DNA of 11,357 nt, from assembly GCA_021850345.1 (NCBI GenBank), contig JAJZMN010000116.1, forward strand, positions 1 to 11,357, written 5' to 3'. The notes beneath the pieces were generated by a model. It did not search any database, was not told the DNA's origin, and saw only the letters and a list, made by a program, of their open reading frames with translations. Positions within the stretch are counted from its first letter, which is position 1. The number at the start of each line of letters is the position of its first letter. Shown one piece after another: positions 341 through 11,313 of the stretch. Origin of the DNA: Actinomycetes bacterium (GTDB taxonomy: Bacteria; Actinomycetota; Acidimicrobiia; Acidimicrobiales; RAAP-2). The position numbers and the translations under genes were made by a program.

Positions 341-598
341 ATGCGAGCAGTCGTGTTCCACGGTGTCGGCGACATCGACGTGGACGACGTCCCGGAGCCG
401 CGCATCGAGCAACCCACCGACGCCGTCATCCGCGTCACCACCCCCGCGATTTGCGGTACCAACCTGCACATGATCAACCTGCCCTGCACATGGTCAGGTG
501 GCACCATCCCGGGGATGAAGCCTGGCACGGTTCTCGGTCACGAAGCCGTCGGCGTGATCGAGGAGGACGGTCGCGACGTGCGCAACCTGCCACGATGA
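341..598 (+). pseudogene. Truncated zinc-dependent alcohol/formaldehyde dehydrogenase remnant
   Basis: The 85-residue product begins MRAVVFHGVGDIDVDDVPEP and continues with ICGTNLHM, then GMKPGTVLGHEAVGVIEEDG. This is the GroES-like N-terminal domain of medium-chain zinc alcohol dehydrogenases of the glutathione-independent formaldehyde dehydrogenase type. The Cys of ICGT and the GHE motif are zinc-site residues in the family. Full-length members have about 350-400 residues. Here the frame stops right after VRNL, where relatives continue into the GDRVV segment, so the rest of the GroES-like domain and the whole Rossmann NAD domain are missing. A 20-bp duplication (463-472 repeated at 483-492) plus about one extra base makes a short out-of-frame stretch inside the zinc-site loop. 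AGGAG lies only 2 nt before the ATG. It is most likely a decaying gene; a functional small protein is unlikely. Confidence 0.75.
463..492 (+). repeat. 20-bp-period partial duplication inside the dehydrogenase remnant
   Basis: CCTGCACATG occurs at 463-472 and again at 483-492. The first copy is in frame (LHM); the second is read out of frame (PCTW), and the family-like frame resumes at GGT-IPGMKPGT. Together with one extra base near 498 this gives a net 21-bp in-frame insertion compared with the usual LHMVRGT-type sequence. The comparison with relatives is from memory of the family. Confidence 0.6.
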
Positions 599-2098: not shown

Positions 2099-2114
2099 GT
2101 GCCGCGATCGGCAC
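2099..2114. promoter_or_regulatory. Palindrome GTGCCG-CGAT-CGGCAC upstream of ctaA
   Basis: Two perfect 6-bp arms flank a 4-nt centre, 26 nt before the preferred ctaA start codon. It could be an operator or a small hairpin in the ctaA leader. An alternative in-frame GTG start for ctaA lies at its left edge (2099-2101), in which case it would be coding. Confidence 0.3.
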
Positions 2115-2140
2115 CACGTCGAGAAGGGGGACAGGGACAG

Positions 2141-3253
2141 GTGCCACACGAGGGGGCGTCGCTCGGACTCGAACCGACGCATCGACCCGTCCGGGACGAC
2201 TCGACACTCGCGGACCGGGCGGACCGGGCGGACCGGGCGGACCGGGCAAACCGGGCGGACCGGGCGGACCGGGAGGAGCGGGCGGACCGGGAGGAGCGGG
2301 CAAACCGGGCCGACCGTGTCGTCGTCGGGGTTGCGGTCACGACGATGCTGTGCGCCTTCGCACTGGTCTGCCTTGGCAGCACCGTGCGCGTCACCAACTC
2401 GGGCATGGGCTGTCCGAGTTGGCCGCTCTGCTACGGCCACGTCGGGCCGATCGACCGCTTCCACGCGCTGCTCGAGCAGTCGCACCGCTACCTGGCGGGG
2501 CTCGTGACGGTGGGCGCCGTCGCCACCGCGCTCCTCGCCTACCGCGCACGAGCTCGTCGGATGGCGTTTCCTCCCGCCCTCGGGGGTGCGTGCCTGGTCG
2601 TTGTCCAGGCGGCCCTTGGCGCGCTCACCGTCTTGGCCAAGAACGCCCCCTGGACGGTCGCAGTGCACCTCGTCGTGGGCCTGACGTTCCTGGCGGTCAC
2701 GGTCGTCACCGTCATCACCGCGGTGCGAGCCCCCCGTGGCGCTTGGCATTGGACAGCCGTGGGGGGACGGGGATGGGGAGTGCTCGCCGCGATGCTCGCC
2801 GCCATCGTGGGCGGGAGCCTCGTGGTGGCCAACGGAGCCGGGGGCGCGTGCCCCGCCTGGCCTCTCTGCCCGTCATCGGCGCCGGGTCTCGCCGATTGGC
2901 AGCTGGTCCATCGCTCACTCGCCGGCATCGCCGGAATCGCGCTCGTCTGGTTCATCGGCAGTCGGTGGCGCGAGACCTCCGACCGGCGTGCTTGGCGTGC
3001 CGGTGCCGTCGCGTCGCTCGGCCTCTTCGTCGCGGTCGCCGCCTTCGGCGCCGCGAGCGCGATTACTAGGGCTGCACCGGTCTGGCAGGACCTCCATCTT
3101 CCGATGGTCGGGCTCCTCTGGGGGCTCGTCGTGGCGATGGTGGCCGCGCTGGCGACGTACCGGCCACTCGAAGGGTCCCCCGACCGCGCGGGGGGCGAGT
3201 CACCGACCCAACGGAGCGTGGAGCGCGCGGCCGTTGCGGGCCGAAGCAACTAG
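2141..3253 (+). CDS. ctaA: Heme A synthase (COX15/CtaA family) with repeat-bearing N-terminal extension
   Basis: The 370-residue membrane protein has about eight hydrophobic segments (roughly 60-80, 115-135, 145-166, 173-195, 212-231, 256-274, 286-308, 319-339). It carries the family hallmarks: ExxH in the first half (E112, H115), further histidines H176, H257 and H319, and two extracytoplasmic cysteine pairs, GCPSWPLC (C91, C97) and CPAWPLC (C237, C243). In the family the enzyme oxidises the heme O methyl group to a formyl group, giving heme A for aa3-type cytochrome oxidase. I prefer the GTG at 2141 because AAGGGGG (2124-2130) lies 10 nt upstream; GTG 2099 is in frame and would add 14 residues. 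Residues 22-59 are an unusual charged extension of ADR/EER repeats encoded by a 9-bp tandem repeat. No ctaB or oxidase gene is in view, so it stands apart from a cox cluster here. Confidence 0.88.
   Translation: MPHEGASLGLEPTHRPVRDDSTLADRADRADRADRANRADRADREERADREERANRADRVVVGVAVTTMLCAFALVCLGSTVRVTNSGMGCPSWPLCYGHVGPIDRFHALLEQSHRYLAGLVTVGAVATALLAYRARARRMAFPPALGGACLVVVQAALGALTVLAKNAPWTVAVHLVVGLTFLAVTVVTVITAVRAPRGAWHWTAVGGRGWGVLAAMLAAIVGGSLVVANGAGGACPAWPLCPSSAPGLADWQLVHRSLAGIAGIALVWFIGSRWRETSDRRAWRAGAVASLGLFVAVAAFGAASAITRAAPVWQDLHLPMVGLLWGLVVAMVAALATYRPLEGSPDRAGGESPTQRSVERAAVAGRSN
2211..2318 (+). repeat. 9-bp minisatellite, 12 units, within the ctaA 5' coding region
   Basis: The unit CGGACCGGG is repeated head to tail about twelve times. 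Seven copies are exact; the variants are CAAACCGGG (units 5 and 11), AGGAGCGGG (units 8 and 10) and a degenerate last unit. In the ctaA frame it encodes Ala-Asp-Arg repeats with Asn and Glu-Glu variants. In the other plus frame it reads Gly-Gly-Pro-like and on the minus strand Gly-Pro-Pro-like, both of which look collagen-like but are by-products. The 9-bp period keeps the frame whatever the copy number, so length variation between strains would be tolerated. Confidence 0.9.
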
Positions 3254-3371: not shown

Positions 3372-4343
3372 TCAGCGCGCTGGTCGCAACGACCGCGGCT
3401 TGGCCTGAGGTTTGGTCCGAAGCGCCTGGGGCTGGGGCCCCCCGTCGAACTCGCGCGCCATTCGGCGCAGCACTGCGCGAAGGACACGCTGCGTCCTCTG
3501 CTCGAGCGTGTCGGTGTCGAGCGGCGCCCCGTCGTCCACCGCCTGGTGCCACGTCCCCGACACCCGCAGCTCGCAACGCGCCGCGTCGACGGGCTCGACA
3601 TGGAGCTCGCCTTCGAAGTGGCTCCGTCCGCCAGGCTCCGAGAGGCGCCAGCCGAGGAGGTAGGTCGAGGGGTCCCCGGCGCCACCCTGGACGGACGGGT
3701 CGATCGAGCACTCGGCGACGAGACGCGCCGGGCGCGATACGTCGCCGGGGAGCTCCCCCGCCTCGTGCACCGCCGCGCCGAGGACCGCGCTCCAGTTGTG
3801 ACGCGCGCCGAGCGCGGCGTGGACTGCGAGCGCCGGTAGCTCCACGTGGACGAGGTCCGAGAGGTCCACGGCGCGGGGGTGCGACCGGTGGGCGTCACTC
3901 GGTACCCGATAGCGGCCGGCTTCGATGTCCGCATCGCGTGCCGCCACCTCGGCGAGGGTGGTCCCTGCAAGCAGCTCGGCCAGCTGCGCCGTCGCCTGTC
4001 CCCAGGTCTCGTGCAGCGGGCAGACCGCTTCCCAGCGGCATGGTCCGTCCCCGAGAGCGCAGCGTTCGGCGCGCAGCCGTCCCTCGGCAGCCTCGACGAC
4101 CTCCAAGACGCTGATCTCCTCGGGGTGCCGGGAGAGCCGGTAGCCGCCGTCGCGTCCCGCGCGCGATACCGCCAGACCGGCCCGGACCAGGTCAGCGAGA
4201 ATTTGCGACGCGAAGGTCCGCGGCACCTCCGTCTCCGCGACGACCTCGCGGATCTTGCGGGGCCCTCCGGCCTCGTAGGCGCGGGCGAGCGCGATCGCAG
4301 AGCGCATCACGTAGTCACCGCGTTTGGACAGGATCATGTTCAT
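3372..4343 (-). CDS. Rrf2-family regulator fused to an SRPBCC-like C-terminal domain
   Basis: The 323-residue product has two parts. Residues 1-135 are a complete Rrf2 domain: LSKRGDYVMRSAIALA at the start, a winged helix-turn-helix around 30-72 ending DGGYRLSR, and three cysteines C95, C102 and C108 (C-x6-C-x5-C, followed by PLH). These sit where NsrR- and IscR-type proteins bind an iron-sulfur cluster. Residues 160-300 are a second domain with alternating hydrophobic strands (VHVELPALAVHAAL, HFEGELHVEP, CELRVSGTW) and a final long helix, resembling SRPBCC/polyketide-cyclase folds; this fold call is inference. Most Rrf2 proteins are about 130-160 residues, so the protein is twice the usual size. 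It follows the flavodoxin-fusion gene by 76 bp on the same strand. An ATG at 4337 (residue 3) is an equally possible start; no strong Shine-Dalgarno site is seen. Confidence 0.82.
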   Translation of the reverse strand: MNMILSKRGDYVMRSAIALARAYEAGGPRKIREVVAETEVPRTFASQILADLVRAGLAVSRAGRDGGYRLSRHPEEISVLEVVEAAEGRLRAERCALGDGPCRWEAVCPLHETWGQATAQLAELLAGTTLAEVAARDADIEAGRYRVPSDAHRSHPRAVDLSDLVHVELPALAVHAALGARHNWSAVLGAAVHEAGELPGDVSRPARLVAECSIDPSVQGGAGDPSTYLLGWRLSEPGGRSHFEGELHVEPVDAARCELRVSGTWHQAVDDGAPLDTDTLEQRTQRVLRAVLRRMAREFDGGPQPQALRTKPQAKPRSLRPAR

Positions 4344-4388
4344 GGCCGGACCTGCAGGTTACCGAAGGCCGCCGGCCGCCCAGTGCTT

Positions 4389-4411
4389 CCGCGGCCAAGA
4401 TGCCGCCGCGG
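4389..4411 (-). terminator. GC-rich hairpin in the gap before the Rrf2-fusion gene
   Basis: CCGCGG at 4389-4394 can pair with CCGCGG at 4406-4411, and an alternative inner pairing is GCGGC/GCCGC around CAAGAT. It lies 8 nt past the stop of the oxidoreductase-flavodoxin gene in the direction of transcription. It may attenuate read-through into the downstream Rrf2-fusion gene. There is no T-tract, and GC-rich symmetry arises easily in this genome. Confidence 0.25.
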
Positions 4412-4419
4412 CGAGCTCG

Positions 4420-6627
4420 TCATGGCGCCTGCGTGGACCCCGCGGGGACCGCCTCGTGTGCCCGGAACCCCGCAAGGAACCGGCGGGCGAAGGCGACCGC
4501 CGCGACCCGGTTCGCGCCGCGCCGCAAGGCCGAGGTGGTCACGACGCGTGCGCCCTTCTGCTCCACCAGCGAAGCCATCTGCACGAGCGTTCCGCGCGGG
4601 TCCACCGCGTAGGTGCAGAAGAGCGCCACCGGGATGCCGCCCAGGCGCGGCAGCTCGTCGAGCCACGCCGAGACGGCGGGCGGGACCCCCACCTTGGCCA
4701 CCACGAGGCCCTTCACCCAGGTACCGATCACGAGGGCGTCGGCGGCGGCGAGCTCCTCGGCACCGACGTGCTCGATCGGGAGGACACGGACGGCGCACTG
4801 CTTGTCGGCGAGCTCTTCACCGACCGTCCGTGCGACCGCAGCCGTGCGGCCGCCCTCGCTCGAGTAGCAGACGAGCACCCGCCTGCCGGCATTGGGCCCG
4901 CGGCGCCCCGGCCGGGACGGGTGAGCTGCGAGGACGGCCTGCGCGGCGCGCCGTCCCTGTGCCATCGCCTCGACCACGGTCGACGGGCCGACGAGCGCAT
5001 CGCCGACCACCCACAGCCTCTCGCGCACGGGGAAGGATGCGGCCTGGAGGCCCACCTCCCTGCCGAGGGCGAGCCTGCCGACGGGGTTGTGGAACGCGAA
5101 GGAGGACGCCCGGTTGGCGAGAACGCCCGACGCCGTCCAGCGCCGGTCCGGCACGCCGCGCTGCTCCCGGCGAACAGGCGTGCCCGGCAACGCGGCGGCG
5201 ACGTCCGGATCGGGGCGGTATCCCATGGCCATGACGACGAGGTCCACGTCGACGCCCTCGGCGGGCACGTCACGCAGGACCGCCGGGAGCCGGTCGGCGC
5301 GCTCTTGACGGGTCGGTGCCAGCCATGCCCGCCGCGCCCGCCCGTCCGGCCCCTCGATGCTGGTCACGGTCCTCGCGAACCTGACGATCACGCCCTCCTC
5401 CCGAGCCTCGGCCAACTCGTCGGGCCGGGCCAGCGAGAATCGCTCGTCGAGCCAGTCGACACACGTGGCGTCGAGGCCCAACCGACGCGCCGTGCGGGCG
5501 ACGTCCATCGCGGTGTTGCCTGCGCCGAGCACGAGGACGTGCGGCGTGCGGCCGCAACGGACGGCGTCGTCGAGTCCCATGTCCGAGTGCCACGCCGGGA
5601 GGCTGTCCTCGAGCGCCAACGCACGGCGAGCCGTCTTGAGGAACATGGTTGCGTCGGTCACCCCGTCGAGGTCCGCTCCCGGAATCGGGAGGCGCACCGG
5701 GATGCTCGCCCCGGTCGCGACCACGACCGCGTCGTGCTCGGCGAGAAGCTGATCGAGCCCGGCGGCGTCGACCTCGACGCCGCAGCGAAGGTCGACCCCC
5801 GCATCTTGGAGTTGGCGCCACGGACGGCTCGCCACCGCGTCGGGAAGCGTGAAGTCGGGGATGCCCCAGCCGAGCAGCCCGGCGGGAGTGGAGTCCCGCT
5901 CGTAGACGGTGACCGAGGCGCCTCCTTCGACGAGCGCCCAGGCGGTGCCGATGCCTCCGGGACCGGCACCGACGACGGCGACGGACAGCTCGACGTCCTC
6001 CCCGCGCTCGGGGGGAGCGACCGGGCGCATGTCCGCGACGAAGCGCTCGAGCTGCCCGATGGCCACCGGCGCTTCGCCCGCAAGCGACCAGGTGCACGCA
6101 CCCTCGCACTGGGCCGACTGGTTGCAGACGCGCGAGCAGACGTCGGGCAGCACGGTCGTCTTGCGCAGGATCTCGTGGGCTCGTGTCAGGTCGCGCTCGG
6201 CGACGGCCGTGATGAATGCCGGAATGTCGTTGTGCGCCGGGCAGCCGCGCACGCACGTCGGGTCCGGGCATCCGAGGCACCGCTGCGCCTCGGCGACAGC
6301 CTCCTGCCAGCTGCGGAGCCCGAGCCGCACCTCGCCCACATCGCCGAACAGGGGCTCTGGATGCACGACCTCCGAAGTGACCCGCGTCCCCGCGACAGCT
6401 GGCCCGTGCACCTCGATGGCGCTGAACGGGCACGTGCGCACGCACTGGCGGCACCCGACACATCGCTCGTCGTGGGCGACCGCCACCCAGCGGACCGGGT
6501 CCATGTCGAGCGCGTCGACGGGGCAGCGAACGACACACTCCTGGCAACCGGCACACCGGTCGACGAGGACCTGCACGTGGGGGCGCGCGGTCGATGTGAC
6601 GCCCGCCTCGGTCATCGTGATGGCCAT
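4420..6627 (-). CDS. Ferredoxin - GltD-like FAD/NAD(P) oxidoreductase - flavodoxin fusion protein
   Basis: The 735-residue product joins three electron-transfer modules. Residues 20-75 are a two-cluster ferredoxin (C25/28/31/35 and C56/59/62/66, both CxxCxxCxxxCP). Residues 100-205 match the N-terminal iron-sulfur region of GltD and dihydropyrimidine dehydrogenase (C117/120/125/129 and C164/168/174/178). Residues 215-570 are the FAD/NAD(P) oxidoreductase, with GAGPGGIG (220-227), GAGNTAMD (368-375) and the GD..GPSTVVEA motif near 542. Residues 582-735 resemble a flavodoxin, with an SSEGGRT loop for FMN. It probably passes electrons between NAD(P)H and ferredoxin-like clusters or FMN; the direction and partner are unknown. 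The ATG at 6627 has AGGAGAGG just upstream. It starts 28 bp after the NosR/NapH-like gene, so they are very likely one operon. It is not a normal glutamate synthase subunit: no gltB is near and the two end domains are extra. Confidence 0.85.
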   Translation of the reverse strand: MAITMTEAGVTSTARPHVQVLVDRCAGCQECVVRCPVDALDMDPVRWVAVAHDERCVGCRQCVRTCPFSAIEVHGPAVAGTRVTSEVVHPEPLFGDVGEVRLGLRSWQEAVAEAQRCLGCPDPTCVRGCPAHNDIPAFITAVAERDLTRAHEILRKTTVLPDVCSRVCNQSAQCEGACTWSLAGEAPVAIGQLERFVADMRPVAPPERGEDVELSVAVVGAGPGGIGTAWALVEGGASVTVYERDSTPAGLLGWGIPDFTLPDAVASRPWRQLQDAGVDLRCGVEVDAAGLDQLLAEHDAVVVATGASIPVRLPIPGADLDGVTDATMFLKTARRALALEDSLPAWHSDMGLDDAVRCGRTPHVLVLGAGNTAMDVARTARRLGLDATCVDWLDERFSLARPDELAEAREEGVIVRFARTVTSIEGPDGRARRAWLAPTRQERADRLPAVLRDVPAEGVDVDLVVMAMGYRPDPDVAAALPGTPVRREQRGVPDRRWTASGVLANRASSFAFHNPVGRLALGREVGLQAASFPVRERLWVVGDALVGPSTVVEAMAQGRRAAQAVLAAHPSRPGRRGPNAGRRVLVCYSSEGGRTAAVARTVGEELADKQCAVRVLPIEHVGAEELAAADALVIGTWVKGLVVAKVGVPPAVSAWLDELPRLGGIPVALFCTYAVDPRGTLVQMASLVEQKGARVVTTSALRRGANRVAAVAFARRFLAGFRAHEAVPAGSTQAP

Positions 6628-6655
6628 GGGTCTCCTCTCCTGGCTCCGGCGGCCG

Positions 6656-8212
6656 TCAGCTCGCCGCGTGCATGAGGACGTACAACACGCTCGCCGCTGC
6701 TCCGCAGGAGAGCACGACGCCGAGCGTCGCCATTCGGACTCCGAGGGCGCTGCGGCTGACCGGCACGAGCTCTCTTCCGGCGATCTTCCACGTGGCCCAC
6801 GCCGCTGCCGCAGTGCCCGCGAGGATCACGGCCACCTGCACCACGACGATCCAACCGTCGCTGAGGAGGTGGAAGCCGTAGATCGCCGATCGGGTCGAGG
6901 AAAAGCCGGCGATGTGCGCGACCGCGGGCACGACGCGCGCGGAGTGCTTGAAGAACTTCGGAAGCTGGCGGGCGAAGTAGTCGGCGCCCACCACCGGGAT
7001 GAGCCCGTACGCCATCGGGACGAAGAACGCCCTGAATCGCGAGGTTCGGTCCACGAAGTTCTTCGCGGTCGACGCGGCGGCGGCATCGACGCGGCCCAAC
7101 GCGCGCGACACCAGCCACGCGATGCCGGCGGTCGCGAGCGCGACCACCACGATGACGCCGGCGTAGTCGACGGGGTCCGGGTAGTGGGGGAAGAGGAGCG
7201 TCCGGTTCAGCCAGTTGTCCGCCGAGGCGAAGGCGTTCGTGGCGTTGAACTGCTGGTACACGACCAGCCCCCACAAGATGACGATGCCCCACGCGACGTC
7301 GGCCCGCCGCCTGCGCGGGGCGACCACCGAAGTGAGCGGGCGCTGGATGAAGAGGCCGACGTTGCCCTCGGGGCAGGACTTGTAGCACTCCGAGCACAGC
7401 CCGCACGACAGGTTCGAGTCGGCGCTGCCTGGCCACGTGTACCAGGGACAGCCGTATCCCTGGTCACCGCCGCGCATGCAGTCCTTGGTCCGGCACGACA
7501 GGCAGACCTCGCGGTCCTTGGTCCGGAAGCCCGCAACCGACCCCATCGAACCCACCGTGCCGATCAGGGTGGTGAGCGGGCAGACGTAGCGGCAGAACGT
7601 CCGCCGCTCGAAGACCAAGAAGAAGATGAGGGCGGAAGAGACGATGCCGACGACCATCCACGACGTGTCGGCGGGATTGCCCGGCCCGGCGATGTTGAAG
7701 AACTCCTCGATCCAGGTGAGCACGAGGAAGCTCCCGACCGGAATCAGGAACCCGAGTCGCGCGAGAGGCTCGGGAAACTTACGCCCGAGCCCGAGCGCCT
7801 TCTGCGTGCGGTTCCAGAACGTGCGCCGCTGGATCCACTCGGCGAAGCCGCCGAACGGGCACATCGCGCACCACGCCCGGCCCACCACCACCATCATCAC
7901 GAACACGAGGCAGAACCACACGTACCAGGTGATCGCGGCGCCGAAGTTGAGGCCGGGGACGGCGGTACCGGCGATGCCGACGAAGATCACGGTCCAGAAG
8001 ACGATCTGGTTCGGCACGATGAGAAGGAACTGGAACTTGCGATTGCGGACCAGGCGCGCCACCCGCGGGTTGGCCGTGAGCTCCAATCCCGGTTCGGGAT
8101 CGGTGTCGTCGAAGCGCTCGTGGAGCCCTGCCCGCCGGGTCGGCCGCAGCCGCACCGCCGACGTGACCGGATCGGGTGCGGCGCTGGTGCGCTCCTGCAG
8201 GTCGACGGCCAT
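6656..8212 (-). CDS. NosR/NapH-like polytopic iron-sulfur membrane protein
   Basis: The 518-residue protein has a hydrophilic N-terminus and several membrane segments (about 62-85, 92-111, 154-169, 185-202, 304-320, 348-368, 396-412, 454-474, 491-514). It has the two CP motifs typical of NosR/NapH/CcoG-type proteins, CAMCP (C115, C118) and CRYVCP (C207, C211). A soluble loop follows with C237, C240, C245 and C255, then a ferredoxin motif CGLCSECYKSCP (C270, C273, C276, C280). Such proteins carry electrons between quinols and periplasmic or cytoplasmic redox partners. The C-terminal half (about 300-518) extends beyond NapH and contains several membrane-flanking histidines. I chose the ATG at 8212 because GAGGAGG motifs lie directly upstream; an upstream GTG near 8299 lacks a ribosome site and would read through the CCGGA repeats. 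It is the first gene of the minus-strand operon. Confidence 0.82.
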   Translation of the reverse strand: MAVDLQERTSAAPDPVTSAVRLRPTRRAGLHERFDDTDPEPGLELTANPRVARLVRNRKFQFLLIVPNQIVFWTVIFVGIAGTAVPGLNFGAAITWYVWFCLVFVMMVVVGRAWCAMCPFGGFAEWIQRRTFWNRTQKALGLGRKFPEPLARLGFLIPVGSFLVLTWIEEFFNIAGPGNPADTSWMVVGIVSSALIFFLVFERRTFCRYVCPLTTLIGTVGSMGSVAGFRTKDREVCLSCRTKDCMRGGDQGYGCPWYTWPGSADSNLSCGLCSECYKSCPEGNVGLFIQRPLTSVVAPRRRRADVAWGIVILWGLVVYQQFNATNAFASADNWLNRTLLFPHYPDPVDYAGVIVVVALATAGIAWLVSRALGRVDAAAASTAKNFVDRTSRFRAFFVPMAYGLIPVVGADYFARQLPKFFKHSARVVPAVAHIAGFSSTRSAIYGFHLLSDGWIVVVQVAVILAGTAAAAWATWKIAGRELVPVSRSALGVRMATLGVVLSCGAAASVLYVLMHAAS

Positions 8213-8257
8213 CGGCCCCTCCTCGCCTCCTCGAACGTGGGCGCCGCTCCGACACCG

Positions 8258-8288
8258 CCGGAAGGTCCGGAACGGCCGGAAGGTCCGG
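8258..8288. repeat. Palindromic CCGGA/TCCGG array in the operon leader
   Basis: CCGGAAGGTCCGG occurs at 8258-8270 and again at 8276-8288, an 18-bp period. Each copy is an inverted repeat (CCGGA-AGG-TCCGG), and the junction between them is one too (TCCGG-AACGG-CCGGA). The result is four evenly placed alternating half-sites. It lies between the predicted promoter and the start codon of the NosR/NapH-like gene, so it could form alternative hairpins in the leader RNA or bind a protein as a tandem operator. Confidence 0.7.
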
Positions 8289-8310
8289 GACAGCCACACG
8301 TGTAGTGAAC

Positions 8311-8367
8311 AACTTTAGGTTGCAAGTTAGTGACTTCTGAAAACTACGTCAAGTCCTGAGGTACACT
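8311..8367. promoter_or_regulatory. Overlapping divergent promoters with candidate Rrf2 operator
   Basis: On the minus strand TTGACG (8352-8347), a 17-nt spacer and TAACTT (8329-8324) form a good sigma-70-like promoter, with a start near 8317 and a leader of about 105 nt to the ATG at 8212. AACTT-N8-AAGTT (8311-8328) overlaps its -10 box and start site, and GACTT-N13-AAGTC (8332-8354) overlaps its -35 box. On the plus strand TACACT (8362-8367) ends 6 nt before the GTG of the Rrf2 gene, so that gene may be leaderless. The stretch is clearly richer in A and T than its surroundings. Repression by one of the two Rrf2 proteins fits the layout but is inference. Confidence 0.6.
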
Positions 8368-8373
8368 TTCTGG

Positions 8374-8997
8374 GTGGACGTCGGCCTCTCGAGCCGGGGA
8401 AGGTACGTGATGAGGGCGGCGATCTTCCTCGCCGCCGAGTACGGGTCGGGGAAGCTGCGGACCCGGCGCGAGGTCTCCGAGGCCATGGCGCTCCCGCCGA
8501 CATTCGTGCCCCAGGTCATGAGCGACCTGGTTCGTGCGGGGCTCGTCGTGTCGGCTCCCGGCCTCGGCGGCGGCTACCGCCTCGCCCGCCCTCCGGAGCT
8601 GGTCACGCTCGTGGACGTGGTCGAGGCGGGTGAGGGACCGCTGGACGGCAGCGCGTCTTCCGGCGGGTGCGCCGCCCGTGCCGTGCTCTCCCTCGACGCG
8701 CTGTGGAACGAAGCCAGCGCTCGTGTCCGGCACGCGCTGGCGGGCATGACCCTGGCACAGTTGGTCGGGCACGGCGAGGAGGGCGCGCGGATCGTCGGAC
8801 GACCGCCCTGCGGTGTGATGGCTGACCGAGCTCCGTCCAGCTCAGTGCCGGTGCGTGCCGGCGACTTCGGCCCCAAGGAGGTCCGCAAGGAAGCCGTCGA
8901 GGGCCGCAGAGACCTCGTCGGGGCGACGGCGCGCCCGCGCCGTCGCGACGGTCGCTGCCGTGAAGAGCACGCCGTAGACGAGGACGACGAGCAATGA
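8374..8997 (+). CDS. Rrf2-family transcriptional regulator lacking the usual cysteine triplet
   Basis: The 207-residue product opens with LSSRGRYVMRAAIFLA and has the family's winged helix-turn-helix, with VPQVMSDLVRAGLVVS and GGGYRLARP near 45-73, so residues 1-140 are a clear Rrf2 domain. In the region that holds three cysteines in the other Rrf2 protein of this window, only C99 remains (SGGCAARAVLSL); C146 and C194 lie in the tail. A standard three-cysteine iron-sulfur site is therefore absent. It may bind a different cluster with other ligands, or none. The GTG at 8374 follows a TACACT box by 6 nt, which suggests leaderless translation; a weak TGAGG lies 12 nt upstream. Residues 150-207 are a charged tail unusual for the family and antisense to a possible small membrane-protein gene. 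It faces the redox operon across a shared promoter region. Confidence 0.82.
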   Translation: MDVGLSSRGRYVMRAAIFLAAEYGSGKLRTRREVSEAMALPPTFVPQVMSDLVRAGLVVSAPGLGGGYRLARPPELVTLVDVVEAGEGPLDGSASSGGCAARAVLSLDALWNEASARVRHALAGMTLAQLVGHGEEGARIVGRPPCGVMADRAPSSSVPVRAGDFGPKEVRKEAVEGRRDLVGATARPRRRDGRCREEHAVDEDDEQ

Positions 8998-9042
8998 GGC
9001 TGCAACCAACGCCGCCGCGCAGTAGCCGAGGATCGGACCCAT
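8842..9042 (-). CDS. Possible small single-span membrane protein
   Basis: A 66-residue frame begins MGPILGYCAAALVAA and has one hydrophobic span (about 4-33). A basic stretch ARARRRPDE follows, then an amphipathic helix EVSAALDGFLADLLG, an arrangement common in small actinobacterial membrane proteins. About 85% of its third codon positions are G or C. Against it, there is no visible ribosome site, and 156 nt overlap antisense with the Asp/Glu/Arg-rich tail of the Rrf2 gene in the same codon register. That register automatically turns acidic and basic codons into hydrophobic ones, so the membrane span could be an artefact. Function unknown. It would be transcribed divergently from the response regulator gene. 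Confidence 0.4.
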   Translation of the reverse strand: MGPILGYCAAALVAASLLVVLVYGVLFTAATVATARARRRPDEVSAALDGFLADLLGAEVAGTHRH

Positions 9043-9158: not shown

Positions 9159-9839
9159 GTGGCATCACCACCCGCGGCTCGGCGGCGGATCCGCGTCGTG
9201 ATCGTCGAGGACCACGCGCTCGTCCGAGAGGGGACGGCGCAGCTGCTCGAGGCACACGCCGATCTACAGGTCGTCGGCGCGTGCGCGTCCGCCGAGGAGG
9301 GTTCCGATCTCGTGGCGCGCGTTGCTCCCGACGTCGTCCTCGTCGACGTCAACCTCCCGGGGGCGAGCGGTCTCACGCTCGCGACGCACCTCGCCCGTCA
9401 CCAGCCGTCCGCCCGCGTGCTCGTCGTCAGCGCTTATGACGACCACGCGTACGTGACGGAGGCGCTAGAAATCGGTGTGGGCGGCTATCTGCTCAAGACC
9501 GCCTCGGGGCGCGAACTGGTCGAGGCCGTGCGGCTCGTCGCGGCCGGTGTGTTCGTTCTCGATGGCGCGGTCACGGCCAGGCTCAGCCGCAGACACGGTG
9601 GCACGCGGGGGCGGCGGGACCCCGAAGGGCTCACGCCGAGGGAGGCGGAGGTCTTCGCACTCGTCGCGCAGGGACGCTCCAACAAGCAGATCGCGGCGGA
9701 GCTGTCGCTCGGACTGCGCACGGTCGAGTCCCACGTCTCGAGCCTCCTTTCGAAGCTCGGCGCGGCCTCACGCACCGAAGCCGTCGCCACCGCACTGCGC
9801 GGGGCACACCACAGCGATGGCACGAGCTCCGGCTCCTGA
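9159..9839 (+). CDS. NarL/FixJ-type response regulator
   Basis: With the GTG start at 9159 the protein has 226 residues, normal for the family. The receiver domain (about 10-125) shows the acidic pair E17-D18, the phosphoacceptor D63 in VDVNLPG, S91 in VLVVSAYDD and K113 in GYLLK. The C-terminal LuxR-type helix-turn-helix (about 150-210) contains LTPREAEVFALVAQGRSNKQ and then RTVESHVSSLLSKLG. It is therefore a DNA-binding regulator activated by phosphorylation. The frame is open back to an ATG at 8994, which overlaps the Rrf2 stop as ATGA. That extension has only about 60% GC at third positions and is low in complexity, so I favour 9159, though no good ribosome site supports it. Its stop overlaps the start of the histidine kinase gene by 23 nt, so the two are probably cotranscribed partners. 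Confidence 0.88.
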   Translation: MASPPAARRRIRVVIVEDHALVREGTAQLLEAHADLQVVGACASAEEGSDLVARVAPDVVLVDVNLPGASGLTLATHLARHQPSARVLVVSAYDDHAYVTEALEIGVGGYLLKTASGRELVEAVRLVAAGVFVLDGAVTARLSRRHGGTRGRRDPEGLTPREAEVFALVAQGRSNKQIAAELSLGLRTVESHVSSLLSKLGAASRTEAVATALRGAHHSDGTSSGS

Positions 9840-11313
9840 GGCGACCGCAGCGGGCGTCGCGTCCGTCAGCGACGTCGTGCGCCGGGGGCTCCGCCCTCCA
9901 CTGCGCGACCGGCGCTTCTGGGTGATTCAAGCGGTGGTGGTCCTCCTCGCAGGGCTGCACCTCTTGATCGATCTCCAGACGTCGGCGGAGGGCGGTTCCT
10001 TCCCCGGCGGCATCCCGGTGGCACTGCTGATCGTTCCCGTCGGCTACGCCGCCCTGCGCTGGGGTCTGACCGGTTCGGCGTTCACCGCCGCGTGGGCCAC
10101 CGTGCTGTGGCTCCCCGACCTCCTGCTCCCCTTCGACCAGGGCCACGCCCCATCCGACTTGGTCAATCTCATGCTCGTGAACGCCGTCGCGCTCTTCTTC
10201 GGCCAGCGGATCGAGGCGGAGCGTCGGGCACATGCCCGCGTGGAGCAAGCGACCCTTGGGCGCCTGCACGCCGAGGCGGGCTTCCGCCAGCTCTTCGAGG
10301 CGAACCGGGCACCGATTCTGGTCGTCGATGCCGAGGGGACCGTGCGTGCCGCCAACCCCGCCGCGACCGCGGCGTTCGGGGAGGAAGCGCTAGGGCAGCG
10401 CGCGAGCGCGCTCTCGGGCGTGGACGCGACCGCCGACGCTCTTCACGGGCAGGTCGTCAGCGCGCCTGACGGTCACGACTACCGGGTGGCGTTCGTCACC
10501 CTGCCCGAGGGAGGCGACGACGCCGCGCAGCTCGTGTTCGAAGACGTGACCGAGGAGCGCAGCCAGTCCCGTCGGGCGGCCAACCAGCGTGCGCGAATGG
10601 TTGCGGCCGAAGAGGAGCAGCGCCGTCGCCTCGCGCGTGAGCTGCACGACGAGCCATTGCAGCTCCTGCTCCACCTCGCGAGAAAGTTCGAGAACCTGTG
10701 CGAGTCGCCCGGCGTGCCACCCGACGTCGTAGCAAGCCTCGGTGACGCTCGAGTCCGGTCGCTCGAAGCCGCGACGCGCCTTCGCGCTCTCGCCCGCGAC
10801 CTGCGGCCGCCGTCGCTCGACCACCTCGGGCTGGTGGCGGCGCTGTCGGGCTTTCTCGCCGAGGTCGAGGATGGCAGCGGGCTCCCGGTCGAGCTCACGG
10901 TCTCAGGCGCGACGCGCCGCGTCCCGTCCGACGTCGAGCTGGGGGCGTTCCGGATCCTCCAAGAGGCGGTGCGCAACGCCGTGGGCCACGCCCGGGCGCG
11001 ACACGTGCAGGTGGAGGTTGCGTTCGGGGCGGATCGGCTCCACCTGCTCGTGACGGACGACGGGGTGGGGTTCGACGTCGGCACGCTGCAAGGCGAGGGC
11101 CCTGCCGGGCATCTCGGGCTCGTCGGCATGGCGGAGCGGGCGAGTCTTCTCGGCGGCGGGTTCGAGGTGGCCAGCGAGCCCGGGCGCGGAACCGTCGTGC
11201 AGGCGTGGCTCCCCGTCGCAGAAGAGCCTGTGCACGACGGAAGAAGCTCACGGGAAACGGGGTCGAGCGGACCCGGACCCTTCCGGGAAGAACGAATTGG
11301 AAGTCGCCCCTGA
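9817..11313 (+). CDS. NarL-family sensor histidine kinase with four membrane spans and a PAS domain
   Basis: The 498-residue protein has four hydrophobic spans (about 34-52, 66-81, 85-104, 114-128), a short coiled region, and a PAS domain (about 155-245, with FRQLFEANRAPILVVDAEG). The HisKA_3 dimerisation domain has the phosphoacceptor H277 in ARELHDEP. The HATPase domain has an N-box EAVRNAVGHA (N387), DDGVGF (414-419) and a GHLGLVGMAERA lid motif. The loops between spans are short, so it may sense a membrane, quinone or small cytoplasmic signal; the PAS domain might hold a cofactor, but no binding residue is evident. The start ATG at 9817 lies inside the response regulator gene in another frame. 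The frame is open further back to 9475, but that part is a shadow. The last 30 residues are a disordered-looking tail. Confidence 0.88.
   Translation: MARAPAPEATAAGVASVSDVVRRGLRPPLRDRRFWVIQAVVVLLAGLHLLIDLQTSAEGGSFPGGIPVALLIVPVGYAALRWGLTGSAFTAAWATVLWLPDLLLPFDQGHAPSDLVNLMLVNAVALFFGQRIEAERRAHARVEQATLGRLHAEAGFRQLFEANRAPILVVDAEGTVRAANPAATAAFGEEALGQRASALSGVDATADALHGQVVSAPDGHDYRVAFVTLPEGGDDAAQLVFEDVTEERSQSRRAANQRARMVAAEEEQRRRLARELHDEPLQLLLHLARKFENLCESPGVPPDVVASLGDARVRSLEAATRLRALARDLRPPSLDHLGLVAALSGFLAEVEDGSGLPVELTVSGATRRVPSDVELGAFRILQEAVRNAVGHARARHVQVEVAFGADRLHLLVTDDGVGFDVGTLQGEGPAGHLGLVGMAERASLLGGGFEVASEPGRGTVVQAWLPVAEEPVHDGRSSRETGSSGPGPFREERIGSRP

Follow-up and report, generated by a model that had tools for sequence, protein, structure and literature searches.

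An 11,357-nucleotide stretch of contig JAJZMN010000116.1 from an Actinomycetes bacterium (assembly GCA_021850345.1), here called the window, carries a conserved and apparently locally regulated gene module with an unusual regulator, for which a function in electron transfer can be predicted. Its core is formed by two genes on the reverse strand, one for NOS, a 518-residue membrane iron–sulfur protein resembling NapH and NosR (6656–8212), and one for FDX, a 735-residue ferredoxin–oxidoreductase–flavodoxin protein (4420–6627). On either side lies a gene for an Rrf2-type regulator: RrfA, of 323 residues (3372–4343, reverse strand), and its paralogue RrfB, of 207 residues and devoid of cluster ligands (8374–8997, forward strand). 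The favored reading, held at a probability of about 0.5, is that NOS and FDX make up a two-component oxidoreductase between nicotinamide adenine dinucleotide (NADH) and quinone, under the dedicated regulator RrfA, which would act at a 21-bp element before NOS. The individual parts are known already; no description of their combination turned up in the open-licence literature searched. A first-pass annotation of the same DNA had placed a NosR/NapH-like iron–sulfur protein and a ferredoxin–oxidoreductase–flavodoxin fusion between two Rrf2 genes, an arrangement that domain searches of all four proteins bear out.

The recurrence of the module was followed in 121 mapped loci, comprising 80 of the 138 loci encoding a NOS relative that a genome scan returned, 40 fetched stretches, and the window itself. 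Two loci (L156 and L173) were left out as repeats of L028 and L031 and are still present in the NOS and FDX alignment rows; no further near-identical pairs were found. Loci whose best segment is at least 45% identical to NOS are termed close (n = 103), and their neighborhoods were counted by gene calling and tblastn on contigs many of which are short. FDX lies directly downstream of NOS on the same strand in 99 of these 103 loci, the remaining four contigs ending 1.4–1.7 kb past the NOS start, which rules out a chance neighborhood. Where flanks of at least 4 kb and 5.5 kb are available, the two genes adjoin in 55 of 55 loci. An Rrf2-type gene stands near the module in 73 of the close loci and in 43 of the 55 with full flanks. 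The neighborhood search proposed in the first-pass annotation thus found the 735- and 518-residue proteins recurring together, and the self-contained electron-transfer system that it had envisaged survives as a recurring module with its own regulator. What did not carry over is the bracket. A divergent Rrf2 gene combined with a downstream one on the other strand is real in the window and not general, being present in 9 of the 121 loci; two Rrf2 genes are present in 15, from which L073 is excluded because one of its two candidates is a START-only gene.

Most loci belong to metagenome-assembled genomes (MAGs) of actinobacteria. The NOS of the window reaches 87% identity with proteins from MAGs titled Actinomycetes or Acidimicrobiaceae and 91% with one titled Actinomycetota; that of genome G035 shows 58% identity. 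NOS relatives occur in 19 of 296 sampled genomes from the class of genome G001 (16 close, and three with a distant paralogue of 33–34% only), in 10 of 396 from its phylum (five close, five with a distant paralogue only), and in 22 of 301 from the phylum to which G021, a Chloroflexi-titled MAG, belongs (12 close, 10 distant only). In this second phylum FDX adjoins NOS in 12 of the 12 close loci. One distant paralogue (29%, L165) also has an FDX-type gene directly downstream, so that the pairing may predate the family studied here. Other distant paralogues (30–38%; L155, L162, L163, L166, L168, L171, and L172) form a family that stands, by eye, among cupredoxin-like and PCYCGC-motif-like genes; its member in G021 is the one found about 3 kb from NosZ.

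NOS shares with the NapH/NosR/MauN polyferredoxins a Fer4_5 domain (PF12801, over cut-off), a CxxCP and a CxxxCP motif, and two four-cysteine groups. Across 100 aligned rows, these 12 motif cysteines together with C101 are conserved at a level of at least 95%. No histidine reaches the 95% level in the same rows, which argues against haem. Unlike these relatives, NOS scores 29.7 bits against the NapH/MauN model (TIGR02163; cut-off 213.05), and a search at E 0.01 found PF12801 alone and no flavin mononucleotide (FMN)-binding domain. Its partner is likewise different, a pyridine-nucleotide flavoprotein in place of NapG or NosZ. NapH is described as taking its electrons from menaquinol (PMC9012536).

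FDX joins two ferredoxin-type and two Fer4_20 [4Fe–4S] sites to flavin adenine dinucleotide (FAD) and pyridine-nucleotide domains of the Nfn/GltD kind. With Fer4_20 at 118.6 bits and Pyr_redox_2 at 81.2 bits, both over cut-off, its domains are those of this family, and the 16 cysteines of the four cluster sites are conserved at 0.97–1.0 over 90 rows. The known proteins nearest in plan are NfnL, GltD, and AegA/YgfT, a family resembling the small subunit of glutamate synthase that depends on the phosphorylated cofactor NADPH; a solved member, 4ylf, matches with an E-value of 4e-61. FDX departs from them in an added N-terminal ferredoxin part, a membrane partner, a C-terminal flavodoxin-like domain, and the chemistry of its second Rossmann fold. 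Here, residue 391 is acidic in all 90 rows (aspartate in 75, glutamate in 15) and residue 392 is tryptophan in 89, at positions where the four aligned solved relatives present the NADPH-type Arg-Arg pair that FDX lacks. It is a general rule of Rossmann folds that an acidic residue instead of Arg-Arg favors NAD(H) over NADP(H). From this substitution FDX is predicted to use NAD(H), and the pair to be an NADH–quinone oxidoreductase. The flavodoxin matches, at residues 585–717, fall below cut-off. Scored as at least 100 residues beyond residue 580, a flavodoxin-like domain occurs in 64 of the 90 rows and is absent from 26, which makes it an option rather than part of the core.

RrfA is a clear member of the Rrf2 superfamily (PF02082, E 1e-27, 97.3 bits against a cut-off of 30) and has the fold of NsrR from Streptomyces coelicolor (5n07, 7b0c) and RsrR from S. 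venezuelae (6hsd). In the alignment to 5n07, all four cluster ligands are matched, D10 standing at Asp8 of NsrR, and C95, C102, and C108 at its three cysteine ligands. For S. coelicolor NsrR, PMC5411485 lists Asp8 and Cys93/99/105 as ligands and a salt bridge from Asp8 to Arg12. In RrfA, D10 and R14 do not vary in any of 50 rows, which were picked from 57 that had been chosen for the cysteine motif and for length, so that the invariance of the cysteines there holds by construction; in unselected Rrf2 rows, the motif is kept in 72 of 83. Because RrfA has the complete set of NsrR-type ligands, sensing of nitric oxide or of redox state is plausible. Several features nonetheless set RrfA apart from NsrR and RsrR: the C-x6-C-x5-C spacing of its motif, about 150 extra residues that form a START-like domain, what appears to be a single local target, and a paralogue without ligands. 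The class 1 targets of RsrR point to NAD(P)H metabolism (PMC5015018). RrfA and RrfB each score 33.2 bits on the NsrR equivalog model, whose cut-off is 182, and neither is filed as NsrR.

The extra residues of RrfA, 154–305 (3429–3884, reverse strand), are predicted to adopt a START/SRPBCC-like fold, as in APE2225 and Pfam COXG (2ns9). The difference from these proteins is that here the domain is fused to an Rrf2 regulator. CoxG binds quinone. In one relative (P0143), PF10604 occurs together with PF02082, and no description of an Rrf2–START fusion was found in the open-licence literature searched. Homologues of the domain as separate genes, 39–48% identical over 100–155 residues, lie near the module in L134–L136, L138–L140, L037, and L073.

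RrfB is just as clearly an Rrf2 protein (PF02082, E 3e-26, 92.4 bits against 30). In place of the NsrR-type ligands it has R10 and no cysteine motif, its cysteines standing at 99, 146, and 195 only. The first-pass annotation had drawn the same contrast between one regulator with a three-cysteine motif and a large extra domain and another missing most cysteines, and the positions C95, C102, and C108 of RrfA against those of RrfB confirm it. In a midpoint-rooted tree of 83 Rrf2 domains, RrfB, with its long branches, groups with seven other genes lacking the motif (100/96), and the aspartate is replaced by arginine in seven of these eight and by glutamine in one. Next to join is L014 (100/99), which keeps the three cysteines and has serine for the aspartate. 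This pattern suggests that the ligands were probably lost stepwise in one subclade, in which the DNA-binding part is still recognizable; RrfB is presumably redox-blind. The presence or absence of the motif needs three changes over the tree, and it was also lost outside the RrfB clade, in long Rrf2–START regulators (L022, L042, and L056). The loss of all four ligands by RrfB amounts to a natural experiment on an iron–sulfur regulator turning cluster-free.

Upstream of NOS, a 21-bp block of the form AAGTNTAG-N7-CTTGAC recurs, taken here as a candidate Rrf2 operator. The copy in the window, AAGTGTAC-N7-CTTGAC (8348–8368, reverse strand), has one mismatch. It overlaps the predicted −35 of NOS (TTGACG, 8347–8352, reverse strand), set 17 bp from the −10 (TAACTT, 8324–8329, reverse strand), and on its other side the predicted −10 of the divergent rrf gene, in the window that of rrfB (TACACT, 8362–8367, forward strand). 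A TTGACG-N17-TA pattern was seen by eye in several rows of the upstream alignment. Since the rrfB −10 lies 6 nt before the GTG start, its messenger RNA may be leaderless in the window. Exact copies number 28 within 420 bp of NOS among the 92 loci with room for them, a frequency that is partly a matter of construction, since the loci used for counting are those that had yielded the element; the remaining 1.37 Mb of these loci contains none. With up to one mismatch, 57 sites fall before NOS in 56 loci and two elsewhere, both directly before relocated RrfA genes (L032 and L043). With up to two mismatches, there are 76 sites before NOS in 68 of the 92 loci and nine elsewhere, five of which again directly precede relocated RrfA (L031, L032, L043, L046, and L050). 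In 45 genomes already known to hold the module, two whole-genome scans placed 17 of 18 and 19 of 21 matches at the module, while the pattern read backward gave three and one matches in all. A two-mismatch site at L046:11496 stands 25 bp before a gene that by eye resembles one for a radical S-adenosylmethionine protein and whose relatives lie near the module in four loci.

The mechanism proposed from these features is as follows. FDX would exchange electrons with NAD(H) through its FAD and four [4Fe–4S] sites, and NOS, with two more cluster sites of its own, would relay them either to a membrane quinone, probably menaquinone, or from it. The added flavodoxin-like domain, where present, could serve as a second exit. 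RrfA would be the dedicated regulator of the pair, combining an NsrR-type [4Fe–4S] DNA-binding domain with a START-like pocket that may read a hydrophobic ligand such as a quinone. Together with RrfB in those loci that have it, RrfA would bind the 21-bp element before NOS and thereby set the expression of NOS–FDX and of the adjoining rrf gene. In the subclade of the window, RrfB, its ligands lost, occupies the divergent slot, and RrfA lies downstream.

The direction and destination of the electrons admit other readings. The flavodoxin-like domain could instead point to a supply line, in which membrane or NADH electrons leave via the flavodoxin and ferredoxin parts for a soluble oxygenase or reductase encoded elsewhere. 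Candidate partners do turn up near the module. A weak R2-like diiron oxidase match (35 bits against 194) is found, in varying gene order, in seven loci (L001:7271–9543, L013, L025, L037, L062, L078, and L150), accompanied in all seven by a protein of about 155 residues without Pfam match and in four by a ferredoxin; another family, one scanned member of which matches an F420H2-dependent quinone reductase, lies near the module in 10 loci. None of these partners recurs across the majority of loci. An obligate link to the diiron gene was rejected: in the class sample, 5 of the 16 genomes that have a close NOS carry this gene, and so do 26 of 280 others, so that 26 of its 31 carriers among the 296 have no close NOS. 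A recurring terminal enzyme nearby, which the first-pass annotation would have counted as support, was not found in the loci mapped, the diiron match being the best candidate, and a supply function of this kind is considered rather unlikely. Two possible exits, along with the many one-electron centers and the presence of Nfn large subunits among the best solved relatives of FDX, would suit flavin-based bifurcation, in which FDX, like Nfn or FixABCX, sends some electrons from NADH or quinol via NOS to quinone and others to a ferredoxin or flavodoxin of low potential. Yet the flavodoxin-like domain is missing from 26 of the 90 rows, and GltD, a non-bifurcating enzyme, is likewise built with a single FAD and clusters. 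Bifurcation is held to be improbable, and its most elaborate version, an electron-bifurcating NADH:quinone/flavodoxin oxidoreductase of a new class (NapH-like plus Nfn-like), switched by an RrfA that reads a [4Fe–4S] cluster labile to nitric oxide or redox state and, through its START domain, quinone, is held to be improbable as well.

A role in handling nitric oxide or N-oxides is suggested by the likeness of NOS to NosR, by the full set of NsrR-type ligands in RrfA, and by a kinase and response regulator in the window that match the NarX and NarL models, with scores below cut-off. NosR is defined by an FMN-binding domain together with a nos operon context. NOS shows no such domain at E 0.01, and the NosZ propeller was found in one of 45 genomes (G021), about 3 kb from a distant 33% NOS paralogue rather than from NOS itself; membership of a nos system is thereby rejected. 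So is membership of a nap system, NapA being matched in 23 of the 45 genomes and over cut-off in none. RrfA itself falls far short of the NsrR equivalog score, and a dedicated nitric oxide module seems a poor prospect, although no search was aimed at nitric oxide reductases. The arrangement had not been recognized as a named system at first pass. As for the 21-bp element, its span over the divergent rrf −10 and the NOS −35 might make it nothing but the overlap of two promoters, a possibility regarded as rather unlikely. Against it speaks the fixed gap, N7 in 28 of 28 exact sites with no other gap from 3 to 12. So do the reverse orientation of the element before NOS in 14 of the 92 loci, among them the five with relocated RrfA, and its presence before those relocated genes without any divergent geometry. 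This occurrence before moved RrfA genes, in two orientations, and the rarity of the element elsewhere, are not products of construction.

An NADH–quinone oxidoreductase under RrfA also has evidence to answer. Contact with quinone is suggested by one feature, the resemblance of NOS to NapH, whose model it matches far below cut-off; no solved relative of NOS was found at E 0.01, and its structure model is of middling confidence (predicted local distance difference test score 69.7) and matched no structure. By tblastn, 12 of the 55 full-flank loci have no Rrf2 gene, L037, L136, and L139 among them having a START-only gene. The element, besides overlapping promoter hexamers, comes from the very loci used to count it; even at two mismatches it is missing from 24 of the 92 loci, including L151, and four of the nine two-mismatch sites elsewhere do not precede RrfA (L034, L042, L046, and L153). 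Finally, 38 of 45 genomes have a complex I subunit, NuoD, that scores over cut-off, the other seven having fragments or weak matches only, which leaves the need for a second NADH–quinone enzyme unexplained. All of these count against the proposal. Were it nevertheless true, mostly uncultured actinobacteria and one branch of a second phylum would possess a hitherto undescribed connection of NADH with the quinone pool, beside complex I in most genomes tested, and the Rrf2–START design could read redox state and membrane lipid or quinone together.

The recurring neighborhood extends beyond 3372–8997, the limits first drawn around the module. On the forward strand downstream of rrfB lie genes for a NarL-type response regulator (9198–9839) and a NarX/UhpB-type histidine kinase with a PAS domain and a membrane N-terminus (9817–11313), near the module in 53 and 47 of the 103 close loci, respectively. 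On the reverse strand, an accessory beta-propeller protein (694–2016), hydrophobic over a stretch at its N-terminus, is near the module in 12. The final 52 codons of rrfB are antisense to an open reading frame for a 66-residue protein with one transmembrane helix (8842–9042, reverse strand). Its relatives are found in 24 of the 121 loci, the window counted, and the copies in L036, L051, and L157 are not upstream of NOS; the protein has a conserved tail of the LD-FL-LG type. CtaA (2099–3253) was rejected as a part of the module, standing near it in just 2 of the 103 close loci, one of them being the window. A ribonucleic acid element in the NOS leader was rejected likewise, with zero Rfam matches in the window and a folding z of −0.17.

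Some minor observations concern other parts of the window and the sampled genomes. A short run of GGACCGGGC-like units was seen by eye at about 2216–2310, where the CtaA reading frame begins. An 85-residue open reading frame at 341–598 (forward strand) by eye resembles a zinc-type alcohol dehydrogenase at its beginning and stops early, possibly as a gene remnant. In G001:C18, G004:C12, G007:C381, G009:C88, and others, large reading frames for molybdopterin oxidoreductases are interrupted by a single in-frame TGA and may encode selenocysteine enzymes.

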